Below are positions 11,932 through 18,786 of a stretch of 32,570 nucleotides of DNA, one piece after another. Position 1 is the stretch's first letter. Every line of letters starts with the position of its first letter. Made by a program: the position numbers and the translations under genes. A model generated the notes under the pieces. It was not told where the DNA came from and did not search any database. It saw only the letters and a list, made by a program, of their open reading frames with translations. Origin of the DNA: a virus; IMG/VR virus record IMGVR_UViG_3300030106_004434, positions 1 to 32,570 of that record; one strand, given 5' to 3'.

Positions 11932-12759
11932 ATGACGATATCTACTACAACAACGTCTGTTAGCTATACGGGCAATGGATCGACAACAAGCTTTGCGGTT
12001 ACTTTTCCATTTTTTGGATCAGGGTCAACAGCAGAACTTGAGGTCGTTGAGCGGACGATTGCGACAGGCGCGGAAGTTACTAAGTCTTACAGTACGCATT
12101 ACACGGTGACGGGTGGCGATGGATCAACAGGCGCCGTTGTCGCTGGCAGCGCACCGGCTGACACGGTGCAATGGCATATCAGACGCAAGACAACAACGAC
12201 ACAAACGTCGAACTATGTCACCAATGACCCGTTCCCTGCCGACACTCTGGAAGGCGATATTGACCGATTGGCTATGTCTGGTCAGGAACGTGACGGCGAC
12301 ATCAGTCAGGCGTTTCGGTTTCCAGATACTTACACCGGCGGTGCATCTGTTACGATGCCAGAACCAGCAGCGTCTAAATTGTTAAGCTGGAACAGCGATG
12401 CTGACGCACTTGAGAATACAGACGGAAGGGTTGTTTCTGTTAGCGCATCAGCCGTTGCTGCTGGAGGATCACCGACCGTTGCTTTTACAGCATCAACAGG
12501 CGCACTTGCGTTTGGCGTTGTCACCGGGGCAACCGGGGCCACTGGTGCCACTGGTGCCACGGGCGGTGGCATGGCAAATGTCGTTGAAGATACGTCACCA
12601 CAGCTTGGGGGTGATTTAGATGTCCAGACCAATTCCATCGTTAGCACAAGTAACCGTAACATTGCTATTACGCCAAATGGAACTGGTGATGTCATCATTG
12701 GTGGTGGGATGAACCCGTCTGTTAGTACAACCGGCAAAGCGGTCGTCTTTGGATTTTAA
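11932..12759 (+). CDS. Tail fibre protein with virion-binding N-terminus (T7 gp17-like)
   Basis: A 275-aa protein. Residues 1-140 match the N-terminal virion-attachment domain of podovirus fibres: SYTGNGSTTSFAVTFPFF near the start, then a YTVTGGDGSTG block, RKTT, and the NDPFPADTLEGDIDRL helix (about 100-115). A collagen-like GAT repeat (about residues 199-210) precedes a domain with PQLGGDLD and ITPNGTGDVIIGG, common in fibre tails. It is half the length of T7 gp17, so receptor binding is probably shared with the two following small proteins. A ribosome site GGAGTG precedes the ATG. Confidence 0.85.
   Translation: MTISTTTTSVSYTGNGSTTSFAVTFPFFGSGSTAELEVVERTIATGAEVTKSYSTHYTVTGGDGSTGAVVAGSAPADTVQWHIRRKTTTTQTSNYVTNDPFPADTLEGDIDRLAMSGQERDGDISQAFRFPDTYTGGASVTMPEPAASKLLSWNSDADALENTDGRVVSVSASAVAAGGSPTVAFTASTGALAFGVVTGATGATGATGATGGGMANVVEDTSPQLGGDLDVQTNSIVSTSNRNIAITPNGTGDVIIGGGMNPSVSTTGKAVVFGF
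12526..12567 (+). repeat. Tandem 9-nt repeats coding collagen-like GAT
   Basis: Four near-identical 9-bp units of the type GGTGCCACT encode Gly-Ala-Thr triplets in the fibre gene. Such repeats can change copy number by slippage, which would lengthen or shorten the linker in frame. Confidence 0.6.
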
Positions 12760-12771
12760 AGGAGTGAAATA

Positions 12772-13101
12772 ATGGCATCAGAAGTCTTTGGCGTCTCGCT
12801 TACAGCAGGCGTCACAAATTCAGAAAGCGTGGTTTTAAACGGCGTGAACGGTCACACATATGTGATCACAAGTATTGTGGTCTGTGAAACAGCAGGGGCT
12901 GCTGAAACTTTTGATCTTTACATCGATGACGGCGGCGGCGGTACTGACTATGAACTGTTGTCAGATCAAGCAATCGGTGCAAACGAAACATTCGTCTTTA
13001 ATGATCGGATTGTTCTCGTCGATGAAGATCATTTGTGTGTGGCAACAGCCAGTTCCGCAAATGTCGATGTTGTCGTTTCTTACTTGGATCAGACCCGATG
13101 A
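12772..13101 (+). CDS. Small fibre-associated protein
   Basis: A 109-aa acidic beta-rich protein between two fibre genes. No known domain is recognised. The pattern of alternating hydrophobic residues, a Gly run (DDGGGG, about 51-56) and the absence of a signal peptide suggest a small beta-sandwich virion component or fibre tip. The ribosome site AAGGAG at 12759-12764 precedes the ATG. The stop overlaps the next start by four bases (ATGA). Confidence 0.7.
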   Translation: MASEVFGVSLTAGVTNSESVVLNGVNGHTYVITSIVVCETAGAAETFDLYIDDGGGGTDYELLSDQAIGANETFVFNDRIVLVDEDHLCVATASSANVDVVVSYLDQTR

Positions 13102-13787
13102 CTGGCATAATTTCTGATAACACTGGCCGCGCTGGTGGTCTTGTAAAAGCCGTAGCGGCTGGAGGCGGCTTTGCGAGCCAGCAATTCTTCACAAGCTCCG
13201 GCACTTGGACGAAGCCTTCTGGAATTACACTTGTCCGCGTGACCGTCATTGGAGGCGGTGGCGGTGGCGGGGGTGGGGCCACGGACAACAAAATGGGGGC
13301 TTGCGGCGGCGGTGGCGGCGGGTCAATAGAAGTTATCGACGTGAGTTCGGTGAGTTCTGTCACCGTGACCATTGGTGCCGCTGGCAGTGCTGGCAGTGCT
13401 GGCGCAACTGGTGGAACTGGTGGAACATCATCTTTCGGCTCTTACTGTTCTGCGGCTGGAGGCACAGGCGGCACTGGCGCAAGTGTTTCCGGTTCACAAA
13501 GAATGGGAATGGCGGGAGGAGCGGCAAGCGGCGGCGATATTAATGTCAACGGCGGTTACTCAGACGGCCTCTATAACAGAAACGATGGTTATAACCGGCC
13601 TTTTCACAGTGCAGGTTCATCACCTTGGGGATGGGGATTAGGAGGCGTGGGTACAGATACTTGTACCGTTGCTGCGGTTGGTACGGGGTACGGCGCTGGT
13701 GGTGGCGCTGGCTCACATAATGTAAGCGCAACGACGGTAGGCGCGGCAGGGACTGCTGGATGCGTTCTAGTTGAGGAGTTTAAATAA
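13098..13787 (+). CDS. Glycine-rich tail fibre/adhesin
   Basis: A 229-aa protein. The ATG at 13098 is chosen because it overlaps the upstream stop (ATGA) and starts MTGIISDNTGRAG; the upstream in-frame start at 13035 would overlap the neighbour by 67 bases. Residues 28-50 carry the FFTSSGTWTKPSG motif followed by nine consecutive Gly, the signature of Gly-rich phage fibre domains. The rest is made of Gly/Ala/Ser runs with a hypervariable-looking central part. By analogy with polyglycine adhesins of tailed phages it may bind the host receptor; that is inference. Confidence 0.75.
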   Translation: MTGIISDNTGRAGGLVKAVAAGGGFASQQFFTSSGTWTKPSGITLVRVTVIGGGGGGGGGATDNKMGACGGGGGGSIEVIDVSSVSSVTVTIGAAGSAGSAGATGGTGGTSSFGSYCSAAGGTGGTGASVSGSQRMGMAGGAASGGDINVNGGYSDGLYNRNDGYNRPFHSAGSSPWGWGLGGVGTDTCTVAAVGTGYGAGGGAGSHNVSATTVGAAGTAGCVLVEEFK

Positions 13788-14131
13788 TGGCAAAAAAAGC
13801 ACTAATTTTTGGTGAGCGCATCTGTCAGATCGTAAATCCCGGCGAAGAGTTTGAAGTACATGCAGATTTTAAGTGGGTCGATGTCGCAGATGACACTGAG
13901 GACAATAGAGACACTTATAAAGATGGCAAGGTTGTCAAAGCTCTTACGCTTGCTCAAAGCCGTGCGCTTGAAGACCCGCTTCATGTATGTATGGAAGAGA
14001 GGATGGAAAATTATCCAAGCCTTGGCGACTTTGCTGACGCCTATTACTGGGAAAAGAAGGGCGACGATAGCAAGATGACGGCATGGGTTGCAGCTTGTGC
14101 CAAAGTCAAGTCAGACAATCCCAAGCCATAG
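13787..14131 (+). CDS. Small fibre-region protein
   Basis: A 114-aa soluble protein starting at a TAATG junction with the fibre gene. The N-terminus pattern ICQIVNPGEEFEVH followed by KWVDV recurs in small proteins near tail fibres in other phages, so a fibre accessory or assembly role is plausible. No enzymatic motif is seen. A GAGGAG follows its end and serves the next gene. Confidence 0.6.
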   Translation: MAKKALIFGERICQIVNPGEEFEVHADFKWVDVADDTEDNRDTYKDGKVVKALTLAQSRALEDPLHVCMEERMENYPSLGDFADAYYWEKKGDDSKMTAWVAACAKVKSDNPKP

Positions 14132-14143
14132 AGGAGATTATGA

Positions 14144-14695
14144 GTGGACCCTGTAACAATCGCCGCTGGCGTTGCCGCTTTTAAGGCCGCTCAGAGTTCC
14201 ATAACGGCGATCCGTGAGGCGCTGGACACTGCCGATGATATAAGCAGTATAAGCCATCATATTGCTGACCTGTTTCACCATTCGCGTGAAGCTAACAAAG
14301 CATATCAAGCGCAGAAATCCCATAAAGAAAACGTTGCGAACGGCGAGATAAAGCCGGATGAATCTTTGCAAGAAGCCATCGACCTGATGATCCATAGGCG
14401 CGAGATGAAGGAGATGATTAAGGATTTGGAGTGGGAATTAAATAAGAAGTTCCCGACGCCTGTGGGTGAACCAACAATGTGGGAAACCATTAAGCGTGAG
14501 CAATCACGTTTACGATCTTTAGCAGCAAAGCGGAAAAAAGAACAGGAAGCCCAGCGTCTTATTGATGAGGCAGAAAAACGAGAGCGTTGGAAGCGTATTG
14601 GACAAGAAGCTCTCAAATTTGGAGTTCTTGTTATTGCGGTACTGGGAATCGGATGGATATTAATGACTGCATATGACAGTGGGCCGATACGCTGA
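14144..14695 (+). CDS. Coiled-coil protein with C-terminal membrane anchor
   Basis: A 183-aa protein that begins at GTG (14144), placed 7 nt after GAGGAG (14131-14136). An ATG at 14140 is out of frame and stops after 14 codons, so the GTG is the working start. Residues 60-155 are highly charged and helical; 159-178 (FGVLVIAVLGIGWILM core) form one membrane span near the C-terminus. It opens the lysis/membrane cluster and overlaps the next ATG by one base. A lysis or virion-release role is inferred from context only. Confidence 0.7.
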   Translation: MDPVTIAAGVAAFKAAQSSITAIREALDTADDISSISHHIADLFHHSREANKAYQAQKSHKENVANGEIKPDESLQEAIDLMIHRREMKEMIKDLEWELNKKFPTPVGEPTMWETIKREQSRLRSLAAKRKKEQEAQRLIDEAEKRERWKRIGQEALKFGVLVIAVLGIGWILMTAYDSGPIR

Positions 14696-15036
14696 TGGAC
14701 GGCACCGTTGACATAAAACTTTTGATCACGTTAGGCGGCGTTTTTGCCTCAATCATCGGGACTGCTGCTGTGGCTAAAGCTCAGATCCAGCGGCTTACTG
14801 ATCAGATAAAGCAGATTGAAAACGGTATGCGTCAAATGGATTCGCGCACTGACAAGCTGGAAAACGATCTTAGCACCCAGATAAACAGGCTGGATGTGAT
14901 AGCGCAGATGATGAGTCCGTCGGAGCGTGAAAAGTATCATACCACGGTAGCAACCATGCTTGCGAGACTGGAAGTCTTGGAACGCACACAGGCAAAGATT
15001 GAGAGCCGCGTCGGCCTCAATGGGAGCAATTCTTGA
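14695..15036 (+). CDS. Small membrane-anchored coiled-coil protein
   Basis: A 113-aa protein with one N-terminal membrane span (about 9-28, LLITLGGVFASIIGTA core) followed by a long heptad-rich coiled coil (30-105). This is the topology of an inner-membrane spanin (Rz-like) or of small holin-associated proteins. It starts at TGATG with the upstream gene and its own stop overlaps the ATG at 15036. Confidence 0.7.
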   Translation: MDGTVDIKLLITLGGVFASIIGTAAVAKAQIQRLTDQIKQIENGMRQMDSRTDKLENDLSTQINRLDVIAQMMSPSEREKYHTTVATMLARLEVLERTQAKIESRVGLNGSNS

Positions 15037-15155
15037 TGGATAAAATTCTGCGCTGGTGGGAAGACACATTCGGCGGCAACAGTGCAATATGGAATCTGGA
15101 TTATGGGAAAATTATTATTATTTGCCTTCTTTTGTATCACATGTTTTGGCAGTAG
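15036..15155 (+). CDS. Tiny single-span membrane protein (39 aa)
   Basis: A short ORF starting exactly at the TGATG junction with the previous gene: MDKILRWWEDTFGGNSAIWN then a hydrophobic C-terminal segment (about 24-37, IIIICLLLYHMF). Amphipathic Trp-rich N-terminus plus one membrane span suggests a small holin-like or antiholin-like protein. Its last 53 bases overlap the signal peptide of the next gene in another frame. The conserved coupling geometry makes it a probable gene in spite of its length. Confidence 0.6.
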   Translation: MDKILRWWEDTFGGNSAIWNLDYGKIIIICLLLYHMFWQ

Positions 15156-15402
15156 CGTTCAAGCTAACGAAAAGGTATTCGCTGGCTGGATACTCCATAT
15201 GTTCATTAGCGGTCAGTTGAAAGAATACACGCCCCGCGGCGGCATGGCAGAGTGCCTAAAAGTAAAGCGTAAAATTCTCCGTTCTCAGGGTCATGCGGTG
15301 GGTACGCGGTGGGAGTGCGCGAAGGGCAAGCTGGTTTTGCGTAAATACGACACAGGCAAAACTGGAGAGAAATGGCTCCCCGTCGAGCATCTGGGTAAGT
15401 AA
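15103..15402 (+). CDS. Small exported protein with signal peptide
   Basis: A 99-aa protein. The ATG at 15103 is preferred over 15082 since it opens a canonical signal peptide: MGK, a hydrophobic core LLLFAFFCITCF, and a signal peptidase I site VQA-N after residue 21. The mature part (about 78 aa) has three Trp and two Cys (CLKVKR, WECAKG), so a disulphide is possible in the periplasm. No enzymatic motif. It ends at a TAATG overlap with the next gene. Likely periplasmic, in the lysis cluster. Confidence 0.7.
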   Translation: MGKLLLFAFFCITCFGSSVQANEKVFAGWILHMFISGQLKEYTPRGGMAECLKVKRKILRSQGHAVGTRWECAKGKLVLRKYDTGKTGEKWLPVEHLGK

Positions 15403-15869
15403 TGGCAGAGGAGCAACGAGGTAGAAGGACAAGCGATCTGCGGGTAAGCGATAGCTCGGCTATTTCCATGCCCATCCGTAATCTTTTGTCTATCGTAGCC
15501 GCCGTGTCTGTAGGCGTGTGGGGGTATTTCGGCGTTGTCGAACGTCTGAACAAATTAGAGACATTTGAACAGCTAATCCGTAAAGATTTAGACCAAGCGG
15601 TATCAACGCTTGAAGCAGACATAAACAAGAACAATGAATTTAGGATCAAGTGGCCTCGTGGTGAACTAGGTCAGGCGTCTGCGGACCAAGAGCAATTTTT
15701 ACTTATAGAGAGCATTGCAGCGGCACAAGAGAAAATTCAGAGTAGGCTTGAACAGAATATGTCAAACAAAGTCAACATCACGCGACTGAAAGAGGATGTG
15801 AAAGAAGTGCGGATTGCTGTGGAAAAGTTAAAGGACAAGCAGCGTGGGTTGATGAACGGGGGCAAGTGA
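15402..15869 (+). CDS. Membrane-anchored coiled-coil protein, i-spanin candidate
   Basis: A 155-aa protein of a type common in marine phages: charged N-terminus MAEEQRGRRTSD, one membrane span at about 25-46, then the block FRIKWPRGELG (about 79-89) and a C-terminal coiled coil. The N-in/C-out topology with a periplasmic coiled coil is that of an inner-membrane spanin. It overlaps the upstream stop and the downstream lipoprotein start by one base each; spanin pairs are often adjacent like this, but the pairing here is inference. Confidence 0.7.
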   Translation: MAEEQRGRRTSDLRVSDSSAISMPIRNLLSIVAAVSVGVWGYFGVVERLNKLETFEQLIRKDLDQAVSTLEADINKNNEFRIKWPRGELGQASADQEQFLLIESIAAAQEKIQSRLEQNMSNKVNITRLKEDVKEVRIAVEKLKDKQRGLMNGGK

Positions 15870-16192
15870 TGGCGAGGTTACTCATTCTCCCGCTCGTTCT
15901 TGCGCTCATATCCTGTCAGCCTGTCCCAACCGTTGCGGCTGGCCCCGCTATACCGCCATGCCTTCCAACTGGGAAAATGGCCTTACAGGTTAAAAAACTC
16001 TTTGGAGAATCTCCGCTAATCAAAGGCATAGCCAAAGACGGCGCATACATGACGATCTACGCGAGTGGAATCGGATGGACGATGACACGCACGGTAAACA
16101 AAAAGGAATGTTTGTGGATAGTGGGCGAAGGTCGGCTGACAATTATCGGTTACAACGATGGCAGTAAGGAGAGTGCAGATGCGCTACCTTAG
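15869..16192 (+). CDS. Small lipoprotein
   Basis: A 107-aa protein. Start at ATG 15869 (TGATG with the upstream gene); GTG at 15866 is an alternative adding one residue. The N-terminus is a lipoprotein signal with the lipobox LIS-Cys16, and the residue after Cys is Gln, compatible with outer-membrane sorting. The mature part has the pattern KDGAYMTIYASGIGWTMT, known from small exported proteins in alphaproteobacterial and marine phages, and a Cys pair. It may be the outer-membrane partner of the preceding protein. Confidence 0.7.
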   Translation: MARLLILPLVLALISCQPVPTVAAGPAIPPCLPTGKMALQVKKLFGESPLIKGIAKDGAYMTIYASGIGWTMTRTVNKKECLWIVGEGRLTIIGYNDGSKESADALP

Positions 16193-16262
16193 TTTTGTTG
16201 CAATTCTTATTTTATTGGGTGCTTGTCGCTGGCGTATCCCCGTCGATATGTTCGGCTATTGA
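16179..16262 (+). CDS. Micro-lipoprotein (27 aa)
   Basis: A 27-codon ORF, MRYLSFVAILILLGAC then RWRIPVDMFGY. It has a textbook lipobox (Leu-Gly-Ala-Cys16), so the mature lipopeptide would be 12 residues. The ATG is five bases after GGAGAG (16168-16173), a better ribosome site than any other candidate there, and the stop is one base before the M15 peptidase ATG. It overlaps the end of the upstream lipoprotein gene by 14 bases in another frame. Functions of such small phage lipoproteins beside endolysins are unclear; an o-spanin-like role is possible but the mature part is far too short to span the periplasm. Confidence 0.6.
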   Translation: MRYLSFVAILILLGACRWRIPVDMFGY

Positions 16263-16263
16263 A

Positions 16264-16638
16264 ATGCTTTTTGAGCATTACAACGAAATTCCACTAGGCG
16301 GTTGGCCGTACCGTTATTTCAAACCCAACGAAGTCGCTTGCAAAGGCACAGGAAAAATCCTCGTCAACGAGGATGCCCTTGCTGCTTTGGATAATCTTCG
16401 CTCCCATCTTGGCCATTCTATCAATCTATCTTCCGCATATCGGAGTCCCTACCATAATTCAAAAATCGGGGGCGCCCCGCGATCTTCGCACCTCCAAGGA
16501 CACGCCTTCGACGTTAGGCTCCAAGGACGAGATAAAGAAGTGATAAGGAAGGTCGCTGAACAGGTCGGGTTTAAGGGTTTCGGAATGCGTTATCAAACAT
16601 TCATCCATATCGACATGGGCCGTAGGAGACAATGGTGA
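16264..16638 (+). CDS. M15 family peptidase, endolysin
   Basis: A 124-aa zinc peptidase of the M15A (Peptidase_M15_3) type, which cleaves peptides in peptidoglycan. The zinc site is visible: SSHLQGHAFDV gives His76 and Asp83, and FIHIDMG gives His115 and Asp117. The blocks FKPNEVACKGTG and SAYRSPYHN are typical. A TTG at 16195 would extend the frame by 23 residues, but the ATG at 16264 matches the family start and follows the micro-lipoprotein stop by one base. It has no signal peptide, so it needs a holin for export; a holin gene follows two bases after its stop. Confidence 0.88.
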   Translation: MLFEHYNEIPLGGWPYRYFKPNEVACKGTGKILVNEDALAALDNLRSHLGHSINLSSAYRSPYHNSKIGGAPRSSHLQGHAFDVRLQGRDKEVIRKVAEQVGFKGFGMRYQTFIHIDMGRRRQW

Positions 16639-16639
16639 C

Positions 16640-17098
16640 ATGATGGACATGATTTTCAGCGTACTAACTGGCGGTGCCACAGGTATCCTGGGCAGCGTCT
16701 TAGGCAAGGTGTTCAACTTCGTTGATGTGTTCATTGAGGAAAAGAAAGCCAAAGGCGAACATGAACGCACGATGGAAATGCACCGCTTGCAGTCAGAGTT
16801 GAGGGCTGAAGAACTAGAAAACGAGAGGGCCATTGTCGAGGAGCAAGCCTCTGGCGCGGCACGGGCAGCAAGCTATTCCATGATGACGGGCGTTGAGGTT
16901 CCGTATCCGTGGGTGGCTGCTATCCTCAGATTGATGAGGCCGACATTGACCGTCATGTTGGTCGGCATCGTTTGGTATATCTACGCCACCAGCAGCGATC
17001 TAGCGCAGCAAGAAACTATAATTCAGTCTGTAATTTATATGTCATCAACCGCCGTTCTTTGGTGGTTCGGAGATCGTGCCATGCGTCCTAAAAAGTGA
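16640..17098 (+). CDS. Holin of the GTA three-transmembrane type
   Basis: A 152-aa protein matching the GTA_holin_3TM layout: a hydrophobic Gly-rich N-terminal segment (GGATGILGSVLGKVF), a charged helical middle (about 33-75), then two membrane spans (about 98-117 and 125-145) with the RPTLTVML and WWFGDRA motifs. Such proteins make the inner-membrane pores that release the endolysin; the family is best known from alphaproteobacterial gene transfer agents and phages. The stop overlaps the next GTG by four bases. Confidence 0.88.
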   Translation: MMDMIFSVLTGGATGILGSVLGKVFNFVDVFIEEKKAKGEHERTMEMHRLQSELRAEELENERAIVEEQASGAARAASYSMMTGVEVPYPWVAAILRLMRPTLTVMLVGIVWYIYATSSDLAQQETIIQSVIYMSSTAVLWWFGDRAMRPKK

Positions 17099-17265
17099 TT
17101 CCCGAAAAACTCATTGAATGCCCCTGGTGTGGAGAAAGCACCCGCTTAGAACGGGTGCAATCCCACTATGTTTGCACCTCATGCAAGCAGCCTTGTCTTG
17201 ATTGCTGCGACGGCGAACAAGAGTATGCGTCCGACGCTGAAGCGAACGGCGCAGGGTGCAAATAA
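17095..17265 (+). CDS. Small zinc-ribbon protein (56 aa)
   Basis: An ORF that starts with GTG in a GTGA overlap with the holin stop. It carries CPWC (9-12) and CTSC (27-30), a classic zinc ribbon, plus Cys34 and the pair 37/38. The remainder is acidic. Function is unknown; regulation or DNA binding is possible. The last 100 bases overlap a convergent leftward ORF, and a hairpin at 17138-17158 lies inside it. Confidence 0.65.
   Translation: MIPEKLIECPWCGESTRLERVQSHYVCTSCKQPCLDCCDGEQEYASDAEANGAGCK
17131..17158 (-). terminator. Candidate leftward terminator
   Basis: In leftward RNA, GCACCCG (17158-17152) pairs with CGGGTGC (17144-17138) around a 7-nt loop and is followed by TTTCT. It starts eight bases after the stop of the leftward ORF at 17166, the right place to end the leftward operon. 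It is embedded in the rightward zinc-ribbon gene. Confidence 0.6.
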
Positions 17266-17396
17266 ATATTCTGCCGGTTTGCAGACCTGATGACAGCCCA
17301 AGCGGTATCGATCAGGCTTGATGAAAACTTGTCAGGGTTTGTGATAACGCGCCTTGCGTTTCGCAACTCCCGCTGAATACATCGACGGTTATTCAT
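17166..17396 (-). CDS. Small unknown protein, last gene of the leftward operon
   Basis: A 76-aa ORF whose ATG at 17396 overlaps the upstream stop (TGATG) and whose stop is followed by a terminator-like hairpin. The first 45 residues (RELRNARRVITNP, SSSLIDTAWAVIRSANRQ) look like a genuine helical protein; the C-terminal part, antisense to the zinc-ribbon gene, is Ser/Cys-rich and less convincing. No family recognised. Confidence 0.5.
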   Translation of the reverse strand: MNNRRCIQRELRNARRVITNPDKFSSSLIDTAWAVIRSANRQNIYLHPAPFASASDAYSCSPSQQSRQGCLHEVQT

Positions 17397-17782
17397 CACA
17401 CATTCTCCCCTACTTCGACGGTTAGTTTTTGAAGTGCTTGTTGCACCTCATGGCCCATTTCTTCTGTTTCCTGTCCGCTATCAACGGCATTCATAAACTT
17501 GCGATGCTTGCGGACAAAGTCGGTGGCAGCAGAATGCACCCCCATCATTGGGTTTACGTTTTCGTGATCTTCAACCAGGGTGTAAGACCGCCATGTTCTT
17601 GGCGGTCCTGGGATAATGTACCCACGGGCGATTAGCCCTTTGACAATCCGATGGGCATTGGCTGATGTGGTTTCTACCCCTTCGCCAATTTCCTGATTGG
17701 TTGGAACGGTGCCATTATCCGTTCGGTATTGGCGTATGAAACCATACACCTTAATTTGCATGGGTGTTAAAGACGCTCTCAT
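17396..17782 (-). CDS. LexA-like winged-helix regulator without peptidase domain
   Basis: A 128-aa protein. Residues 5-60 match the LexA N-terminal DNA-binding fold: LTPMQIKVYGFIRQY, then the GTVPTNQEIGEG turn and a recognition helix with SANAHRIVKGLIARGYI. LexA's Ser-Lys autoprotease is missing. The C-terminal half is helical and acidic. It may bind operators of SOS or phage genes or act as an anti-repressor. It overlaps the RecT gene by four bases, so it is co-translated with the recombination genes. Confidence 0.8.
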   Translation of the reverse strand: MRASLTPMQIKVYGFIRQYRTDNGTVPTNQEIGEGVETTSANAHRIVKGLIARGYIIPGPPRTWRSYTLVEDHENVNPMMGVHSAATDFVRKHRKFMNAVDSGQETEEMGHEVQQALQKLTVEVGENV

Positions 17783-18786
17783 TTTTGTGCTTCCTTTGCC
17801 TTGGCCGACAAGCGGCGTAAAATTTTCTTGTAGTCTTTGCCGAACGCTTCTGCTTTCTGAGGATATTCTGTTTTGAGCCGATCAATCGTATCGTCGTGAT
17901 CTTTTTTGTGTTCCGCAATCTCATGGCGCCGGTCTTCAAAACTCATGTCTTTGTCGGCTTCAATATCTTTCCATACCTTCCACATGGCCGTTTTCCATTC
18001 ATCGGCTGTTGGAAACTCTTTTATGCCGTCTTCATGGCTCATTTCCCACGCCCGTTCGCCTTCTTCGTCTGAGATCTCCTCTGTCGCGCTCTCAGCAACA
18101 TCTGTATTTTCTGGACCCGAAGTATCTGGAATGGCAACATCGTCGCTCACGGGCGAAATTTGGGGGTCACTTTCTGGCTCTCCCTTCCCAAACGACGCGT
18201 CCATCGGATGTGATGGCACTTCCACTACCTGATCGGTAATGTCTTTAGGTTCATCCGGTTCTGTCGGATAATCTTCGGCTTCCTCTTTTATAACCATTCC
18301 CGATAGCGCGTCAGGAAAACTATCTCTGGCGGCAAATCCCCTCGCCCGCATCTGAAGCATTCGCTTTGGATATGCCCGCCACGGTCCCTTGTTTGTCAGC
18401 CCCGCTTGTTTGGCATCAGCCAAAGAAAAGGATCTTGTCGTTTCAACCTTCTCGCCAAACCGCATACGCACAATGGTGCAGAAAGCCTCGTCACCCTCGC
18501 GCCATTCCTTGTGGCTAACATATTCTTTGTGCCCTGTTATGACGGCGAGCAACCCGTCACCATACAAGGATGGTTTGCCATTAATTACAGCCATGTTTTG
18601 CATAGCAGTGTAAGGCGACAAGCCAACCTCAGATGCCCATTGCACGGCAACCAAAATATCAGCGGGTTTGCCCTTAAAATCTCCAGGACAAAACGAAGAC
18701 ACGGCCACCATTTCCGCAAACTGCATCGCCTCTGCCATATTGCGAGGCGTCAAGACCCCCGATTGTTTTGTTGCAACTTCACCCAT
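17779..18786 (-). CDS. RecT-family single-strand annealing protein
   Basis: A 335-aa protein. The RecT core spans about 10-190: CPGDFKGKPADILVAVQWA, GLSPYTAMQNMAVINGKPSLYGDGLLAV, and RAYPKRMLQMRARGFAARDSFPDAL (quoted in parts: core blocks VGLSPYTAMQNM and PKRMLQMRARGFAARD). It anneals complementary DNA and works with a 5'-3' exonuclease in phage recombination. The C-terminus, about 140 residues, is acidic and extended beyond the typical RecT core. The ATG at 18786 follows AAAGGAGA. It overlaps the exonuclease gene by eight bases and the LexA-like gene by four. Confidence 0.9.
   Translation of the reverse strand: MGEVATKQSGVLTPRNMAEAMQFAEMVAVSSFCPGDFKGKPADILVAVQWASEVGLSPYTAMQNMAVINGKPSLYGDGLLAVITGHKEYVSHKEWREGDEAFCTIVRMRFGEKVETTRSFSLADAKQAGLTNKGPWRAYPKRMLQMRARGFAARDSFPDALSGMVIKEEAEDYPTEPDEPKDITDQVVEVPSHPMDASFGKGEPESDPQISPVSDDVAIPDTSGPENTDVAESATEEISDEEGERAWEMSHEDGIKEFPTADEWKTAMWKVWKDIEADKDMSFEDRRHEIAEHKKDHDDTIDRLKTEYPQKAEAFGKDYKKILRRLSAKAKEAQK

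Follow-up and report, generated by a model that had tools for sequence, protein, structure and literature searches.

A run of small membrane and exported protein genes around the endolysin and putative holin of a marine podophage

The DNA stretch considered here (the window) is a viral record of 32,570 nucleotides (nt) from IMG/VR (IMGVR_UViG_3300030106_004434, positions 1-32,570), and the system in question is a densely packed run of small open reading frames (ORFs) that surrounds a gene for a peptidase M15 endolysin. Ten ORFs follow each other in the order A-B-C-D-E-F-G-H-I-J, all on the plus strand, with fibre genes upstream and a convergent recombination operon (RecT- and RecE-like) downstream. 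We favour, with some reserve, the interpretation that this is an enlarged and modular late lysis-and-envelope region, i.e. a core holin–endolysin pair placed amid modules that relatives add, drop, swap and reorder.

Coupled genes and the endolysin–holin core

A first-pass annotation had described ORFs A to I as coupled head to tail, and both coordinates and junctions agree with this description: the junctions read TGATG at A/B, B/C and E/F and TAATG at D/E, C overlaps D by 53 nt and F overlaps G by 14 nt, and gaps of 1 nt separate G from H and H from I. The accompanying statement that, apart from the M15 peptidase, each of the nine proteins has a membrane span, signal peptide or lipobox also holds, as eight of the nine have a hydrophobic segment or one of these signals. 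With a Kyte-Doolittle threshold of 1.6 over 19 residues, applied to ORFs of at least 50 amino acids (aa), all six ORFs of the region (H excluded) have a hydrophobic segment, and the remainder of the window has one in 6 of its 42 ORFs (p = 7.5e-5, one-sided Fisher test). The ratio of non-synonymous to synonymous changes (pN/pS) between the window and its relatives is 0.16-0.43 for all nine ORFs, including those of 39 and 27 aa; all nine are thus genes under purifying selection. A promoter scan of positions 12700-17800 gave no promoter-like sites on the plus strand and no excess over shuffled sequences.

The core of the region is formed by H and I, which are adjacent on one strand. H (16264..16638, plus strand) encodes an M15 peptidase endolysin of 124 aa without a signal peptide. 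It reaches 81.0 bits against PF08291 (cut-off 23.2), and its zinc-site motifs SSHLQGHAFDV and FIHID match SxHxxGxAxD and HxD, which bears out the earlier assignment as an M15 endolysin; a sequence search of the PDB with H gave no match at E ≤ 0.001. Because a hydrophobic in-frame upstream extension is not conserved, we place the start at ATG 16264. A signal-anchor extension from TTG 16195 was considered and rejected, the upstream frame being neither conserved nor hydrophobic in relatives.

ORF I (16640..17098, plus strand), 152 aa, encodes a putative holin of a GTA_holin_3TM-like family (phrog_6637, E 1.5e-11). That a holin of the gene transfer agent (GTA) type is certain, as the first-pass annotation had it, goes too far: against GTA_holin_3TM (PF11351) the window protein scores 13.0 bits, below the Pfam gathering cut-off of 24.8, the relative in locus L009 scores 24.0 bits against the same cut-off, and 3 of 11 family members match (E ≤ 0.01, best E 5.9e-5). 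We infer a GTA-type holin at the level of the family and file the window protein only as related to PF11351. Its hydropathy peaks at residues ~4-21, ~94-112 and, weakly, ~127-144, with three spans expected of GTA_holin_3TM. In many contigs, relatives of I adjoin M15 or GH24 endolysins.

A mosaic of modules among relatives

Family profiles were run over about 150 related loci (designated by L numbers); near-identical contigs are part of some of the resulting counts, and where I or a neighbouring gene served as query, the loci retrieved are biased towards that gene neighbourhood. Across these loci the block is a mosaic, composed of the A-B pair, C-D-E, the two lipoproteins (F and G) and a holin–endolysin pair that is interchangeable (M15 peptidase with holin, or the same holin family with GH24 lysozyme). 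Its minimal form, A-B-H-I, occurs in six contigs; other orders are A-B-F-G-H-I, A-E-D-B-F-G-H-I-J and A-B-C-D-E-I-GH24 lysozyme, as well as A-PEI-C-D-E-F-G-I-GH24 and I-GH24-B-C-D-E-A. Of 71 usable loci, 53 have B directly after A; D lies no more than 150 nt beyond C in 45 of 47 loci, the order H-I is found in 35 of 42, and I and GH24 are adjacent in 29. One and the same holin family is paired with two unrelated endolysins (M15 and GH24), in a setting of shared accessory families. Counting only loci with 3 kb available on both sides, A lies at most 4 kb from a holin or endolysin gene in 29 of 30 loci, B in 25 of 27, C in 15 of 17, F in 16 of 16 and G in 7 of 7.

Of the 'one coupled lysis region' originally proposed, the lysis region stands, with its M15 peptidase, an adjacent holin and surplus membrane and exported genes that are kept in relatives, but not the single fixed system, since blocks are reordered, lost or replaced. 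Independently scattered homologues, or small ORFs not kept in close relatives, had been named as refuting one system; the modules are conserved, but they travel partly independently (C-D-E without lysis genes, F not tied to E). The surplus over a usual lysis cassette is confirmed: around the endolysin and holin genes lie those for seven further small proteins, either membrane-bound or exported.

The A-B pair opens the block. A (14144..14695, plus strand, GTG start), 183 aa, has a predicted cytoplasmic helical domain and a C-terminal membrane anchor; its hydrophobic segment (~159-176) has a strongly positive N-flank, and K/R counts give an N-in orientation for 50 of 51 members. The family is present in about 50 contigs; searches of Pfam, PHROG and NCBIfam gave no assignment, and tblastn in annotated phages gave no match. 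B (14695..15036, plus strand), 113 aa, combines an N-terminal membrane span with a coiled coil, and many aligned family members end with an xHNxxHP motif at the C-terminus. Three of 18 members weakly match the 'Rz-like spanin' family phrog_739 (best E 1.1e-4), matches to PHROG 'hemolysin' families, considered as a sign of an XhlA-like accessory protein, are weak (E 0.007 and 0.75), and the charge rule leans towards C-in without being decisive. In L022 (4144-4488), L004 (1360-1704), L134, L143 and L028, the place of B is taken by a 114-aa protein (MPEIELPQSW...) that has a single N-terminal span and a soluble part which looks MscS beta domain-like by eye; a Pfam search with this protein gave no match.

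In the second module, the single-span protein C (39 aa; 15036..15155, plus strand) is the most conserved part of the block, with a pN/pS of 0.14 outside its overlap with D. D (15103..15402, plus strand; phrog_24646, E 5e-6) is a 99-aa exported protein with a signal peptide and two conserved Cys; its mature part has a pN/pS of 0.14 and a predicted beta-beta-alpha-beta-beta fold, modelled by AlphaFold2 (AF2) with a predicted local distance difference test score (pLDDT) of 80. A tblastn search with D gave no match in annotated phages, whereas profiles and synteny did reveal relatives. Over positions 15103-15152, the codons for the membrane span of C also encode, in the +1 frame, the signal peptide of D; within the overlap C is conserved (pN/pS 0.18), and the ratio for codons 1-17 of D is near 1. 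L030, L055 and L058 lack this overlap, D having there a separately encoded signal peptide, and in L059, L065-L070 and similar marine phages E is followed by two paralogues of D (E-D-D), the first with and the second without a signal peptide.

E (15402..15869, plus strand; phrog_20984, E 7e-25), 155 aa, has an N-terminal membrane span followed by a coiled coil, i.e. an i-spanin-like anatomy. Annotated phage records with this family number 45, of which Pelagibacter phages account for 40, and there are 420 related stretches among IMG/VR candidates. The D-E part is widespread in SAR11 phages, and in HTVC041P and HTVC019P E lies just upstream of the terminase genes, near the site of the T7 spanins.

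Lipoprotein genes have been described as rare in phage genomes (PMC6139136). F (15869..16192, plus strand), a lipoprotein of 107 aa with an LISC lipobox, a proline-rich linker and an alpha/beta domain with two invariant Cys, is the sole strict-consensus lipoprotein in any frame of the window; the same strict scan recovers the controls lambda Rz1, lambda Bor and T7 gp18.7. The AF2 model of F has a pLDDT of ~90 for most of residues 31-90. In fold searches with F and D, the best VIA Z values (6.3 and 5.4, respectively) lay within background, Foldseek gave no match at E ≤ 0.001, and D had no clear PDB match.

G (16179..16262, plus strand) is a mini-lipoprotein of 27 aa, the LGAC lipobox of which passes only a relaxed pattern; it has the conserved mature peptide CRWRIPVDMFGY and a pN/pS of 0.32 outside its overlap with F. 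As G precedes not only H (in 10 loci) but also I of GH24 lysozyme cassettes (in 7), it is separate from H rather than an upstream extension. Sequence comparison suggests that G may be a shortened relative of F. Longer G relatives (L003, 5935-6057; L154, 2295-2417) continue with MMMTxxDLIQQExEL, which resembles an F-type lipoprotein linker.

Lysis, spanins and alternative functions

Searches for separated two-component spanins have looked for a lipoprotein gene closely linked to that of a type II inner-membrane protein (PMC6139136). With the lipoprotein signal found by the strict scan, F is the best candidate for an outer-membrane, o-spanin-like component, with E or B, both having an N-terminal span and a helical part, as its potential partner at the inner membrane. 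The arrangement of a coiled-coil protein with an N-terminal span directly upstream of a lipoprotein resembles two-component spanins in SpaninDB (PMC6139136), and F, with its folded two-Cys domain, also resembles the o-spanins of the T4 type, in which a beta-alpha-beta stretch is combined with two conserved Cys (PMC6139136). In contrast to these systems, E and F of the window show no obligate pairing, their topology is predicted and no known spanin family could be assigned. An o-spanin embedded in E or B was also considered and rejected, as no lipobox ORF is present there in any frame, and neither F nor G resembles a unimolecular spanin, both having lipoboxes but no C-terminal hydrophobic segment.

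In the modular lysis-and-envelope region that we favour, holin I would open the inner membrane, upon which the signal-less M15 endopeptidase H would reach and cut the peptidoglycan; this core is well supported by homology. F, possibly together with G, may then act in the last step as an o-spanin-like lipoprotein of the outer membrane, for which E or B would provide the inner-membrane coiled-coil partner. C-D-E may be a membrane/periplasm module that is not obligatorily tied to lysis. A-B, judged by location and anatomy only, could be an inner-membrane coiled-coil pair most likely tuning holin timing in an antiholin-like or XhlA-like manner.

Several observations weigh against this interpretation. 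F is present in 28 of 57 cassettes with E and in 14 of 24 without E (p 0.48), and since the two do not co-occur we do not file E-F as a spanin pair; co-occurrence of B and F is not significant either (p 0.13). The C-D-E cassettes of L009, L136, L141, L031, L025 and L030 have no strict lipobox ORF in any frame, and in L037, L045, L055 and L058 C-D-E is found without a recognised endolysin or holin. Charge counts are ambiguous for E and B and do not decide their topology, as is also the case for the lambda Rz control. Neither F nor D has a fold match, and for A, B, C, D and G the proposed roles come down to anatomy and location.

The last-mentioned C-D-E loci are central to a different, rather doubtful interpretation, in which C-D-E (perhaps also A-B) is a late host-envelope module, e.g. 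for altering the periplasm or blocking superinfecting phages, which does not serve lysis and is parked beside lysis genes because it is expressed late. This would fit not only these four loci, but also the D-E relatives that in SAR11 phages adjoin terminase or other genes, and the small exported two-Cys domain of D. However, the majority of C-D-E loci adjoin a holin or endolysin gene, and the E family, with its N-terminal span and coiled coil, is spanin-like in anatomy. If, on the other hand, this anatomy and the adjacency of E and F, which are used to call separated spanins, as well as the proline-rich linker after the lipidated Cys of F, are taken at face value, the region would be a compact canonical cassette, with I as holin, H as endolysin, E and F as a separated spanin and the other genes as unrelated passengers. 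This is unlikely, as F and E show no co-occurrence, E often stands without any strict lipoprotein nearby, and A-B is linked to endolysin or holin as consistently as F.

Slightly less likely still, A-B and C-D-E could be two exchangeable lysis modules, so far undescribed, with which marine podophages do the work of antiholins and spanins, with E and the exported D disrupting the outer membrane without a classical o-spanin in the lipoprotein-free cassettes. Finally, that the small ORFs are mainly spurious or decaying, with only H, I and perhaps F as genes, might be suspected from the tiny size of several of them (27 and 39 aa) and their overlap with neighbours, but is hardly tenable: pN/pS is 0.14-0.43, also in non-overlapping parts, the ORFs are kept across divergent contigs, and the selection test already contradicts it. 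In the favoured modular region, recognising A-B, C-D-E, F-G and the exchangeable endolysin/holin modules as linked makes testable lysis and envelope candidates out of 'hypothetical proteins', and the existence of C-D-E with and without a detectable lipoprotein represents a natural experiment on outer-membrane disruption.

Phage context and neighbouring genes

Judged by its proteins, the window phage is an HTVC010P-related podophage, i.e. a marine virus of bacteria; its tail tubular protein B shares 53% identity with the counterpart in Pelagibacter phage HTVC010P. As its guanine–cytosine content is 49%, against 32% in the HTVC010P stretch, the phage probably does not infect SAR11. A scan of bacterial contigs with the E alignment gave mainly SAR11 single-cell genomes and contigs of marine metagenome-assembled genomes, with no clear host. 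In a published account of HTVC010P-type phages, the M15 peptidase is the sole gene named for cell lysis (PMC10504331). Like the window, HTVC010P/Skadi pelagiphages have an M15 endolysin amid numerous small ORFs that are flanked by tail genes and a convergent block, as well as homologues of E and D, but close relatives of the M15 peptidase, the holin, A, B, C, F and G of the window were not found in HTVC010P.

The cassettes of T7 and lambda share with the window a holin and a signal-less endolysin, with inner-membrane coiled-coil proteins and a lipoprotein nearby. In contrast to them, the window lacks embedded spanin genes, has five or more additional membrane or exported genes and shows no obligatory co-occurrence of F and E. 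The lysis modules of Cobavirus (PMC6775973), also marine podophages, are similar in their diverse endolysins and in having several genes for proteins with 1-2 spans around the lysis genes.

Two further genes belong to this neighbourhood. In several relatives (L005, 3430-3741; L013, 353-670; L047, 3460-3795; and others) C-D-E or A-B is adjoined by a gene for a protein of 103-111 aa, in which an EF-hand-like DxDGDGxVSDxE loop (weak Pfam EF-hand match, E 0.1) is joined to 2-3 membrane spans and which might possibly be a calcium-responsive holin. In the window itself, the run continues with ORF J (17095..17265, plus strand), a tenth ORF absent from the first-pass annotation, which starts with GTG, overlaps the stop codon of I and encodes a 56-aa zinc ribbon that is not a membrane protein (weak Lar-like match, E 4e-4, below cut-off); J is conserved after the holin or endolysin gene in several relatives.

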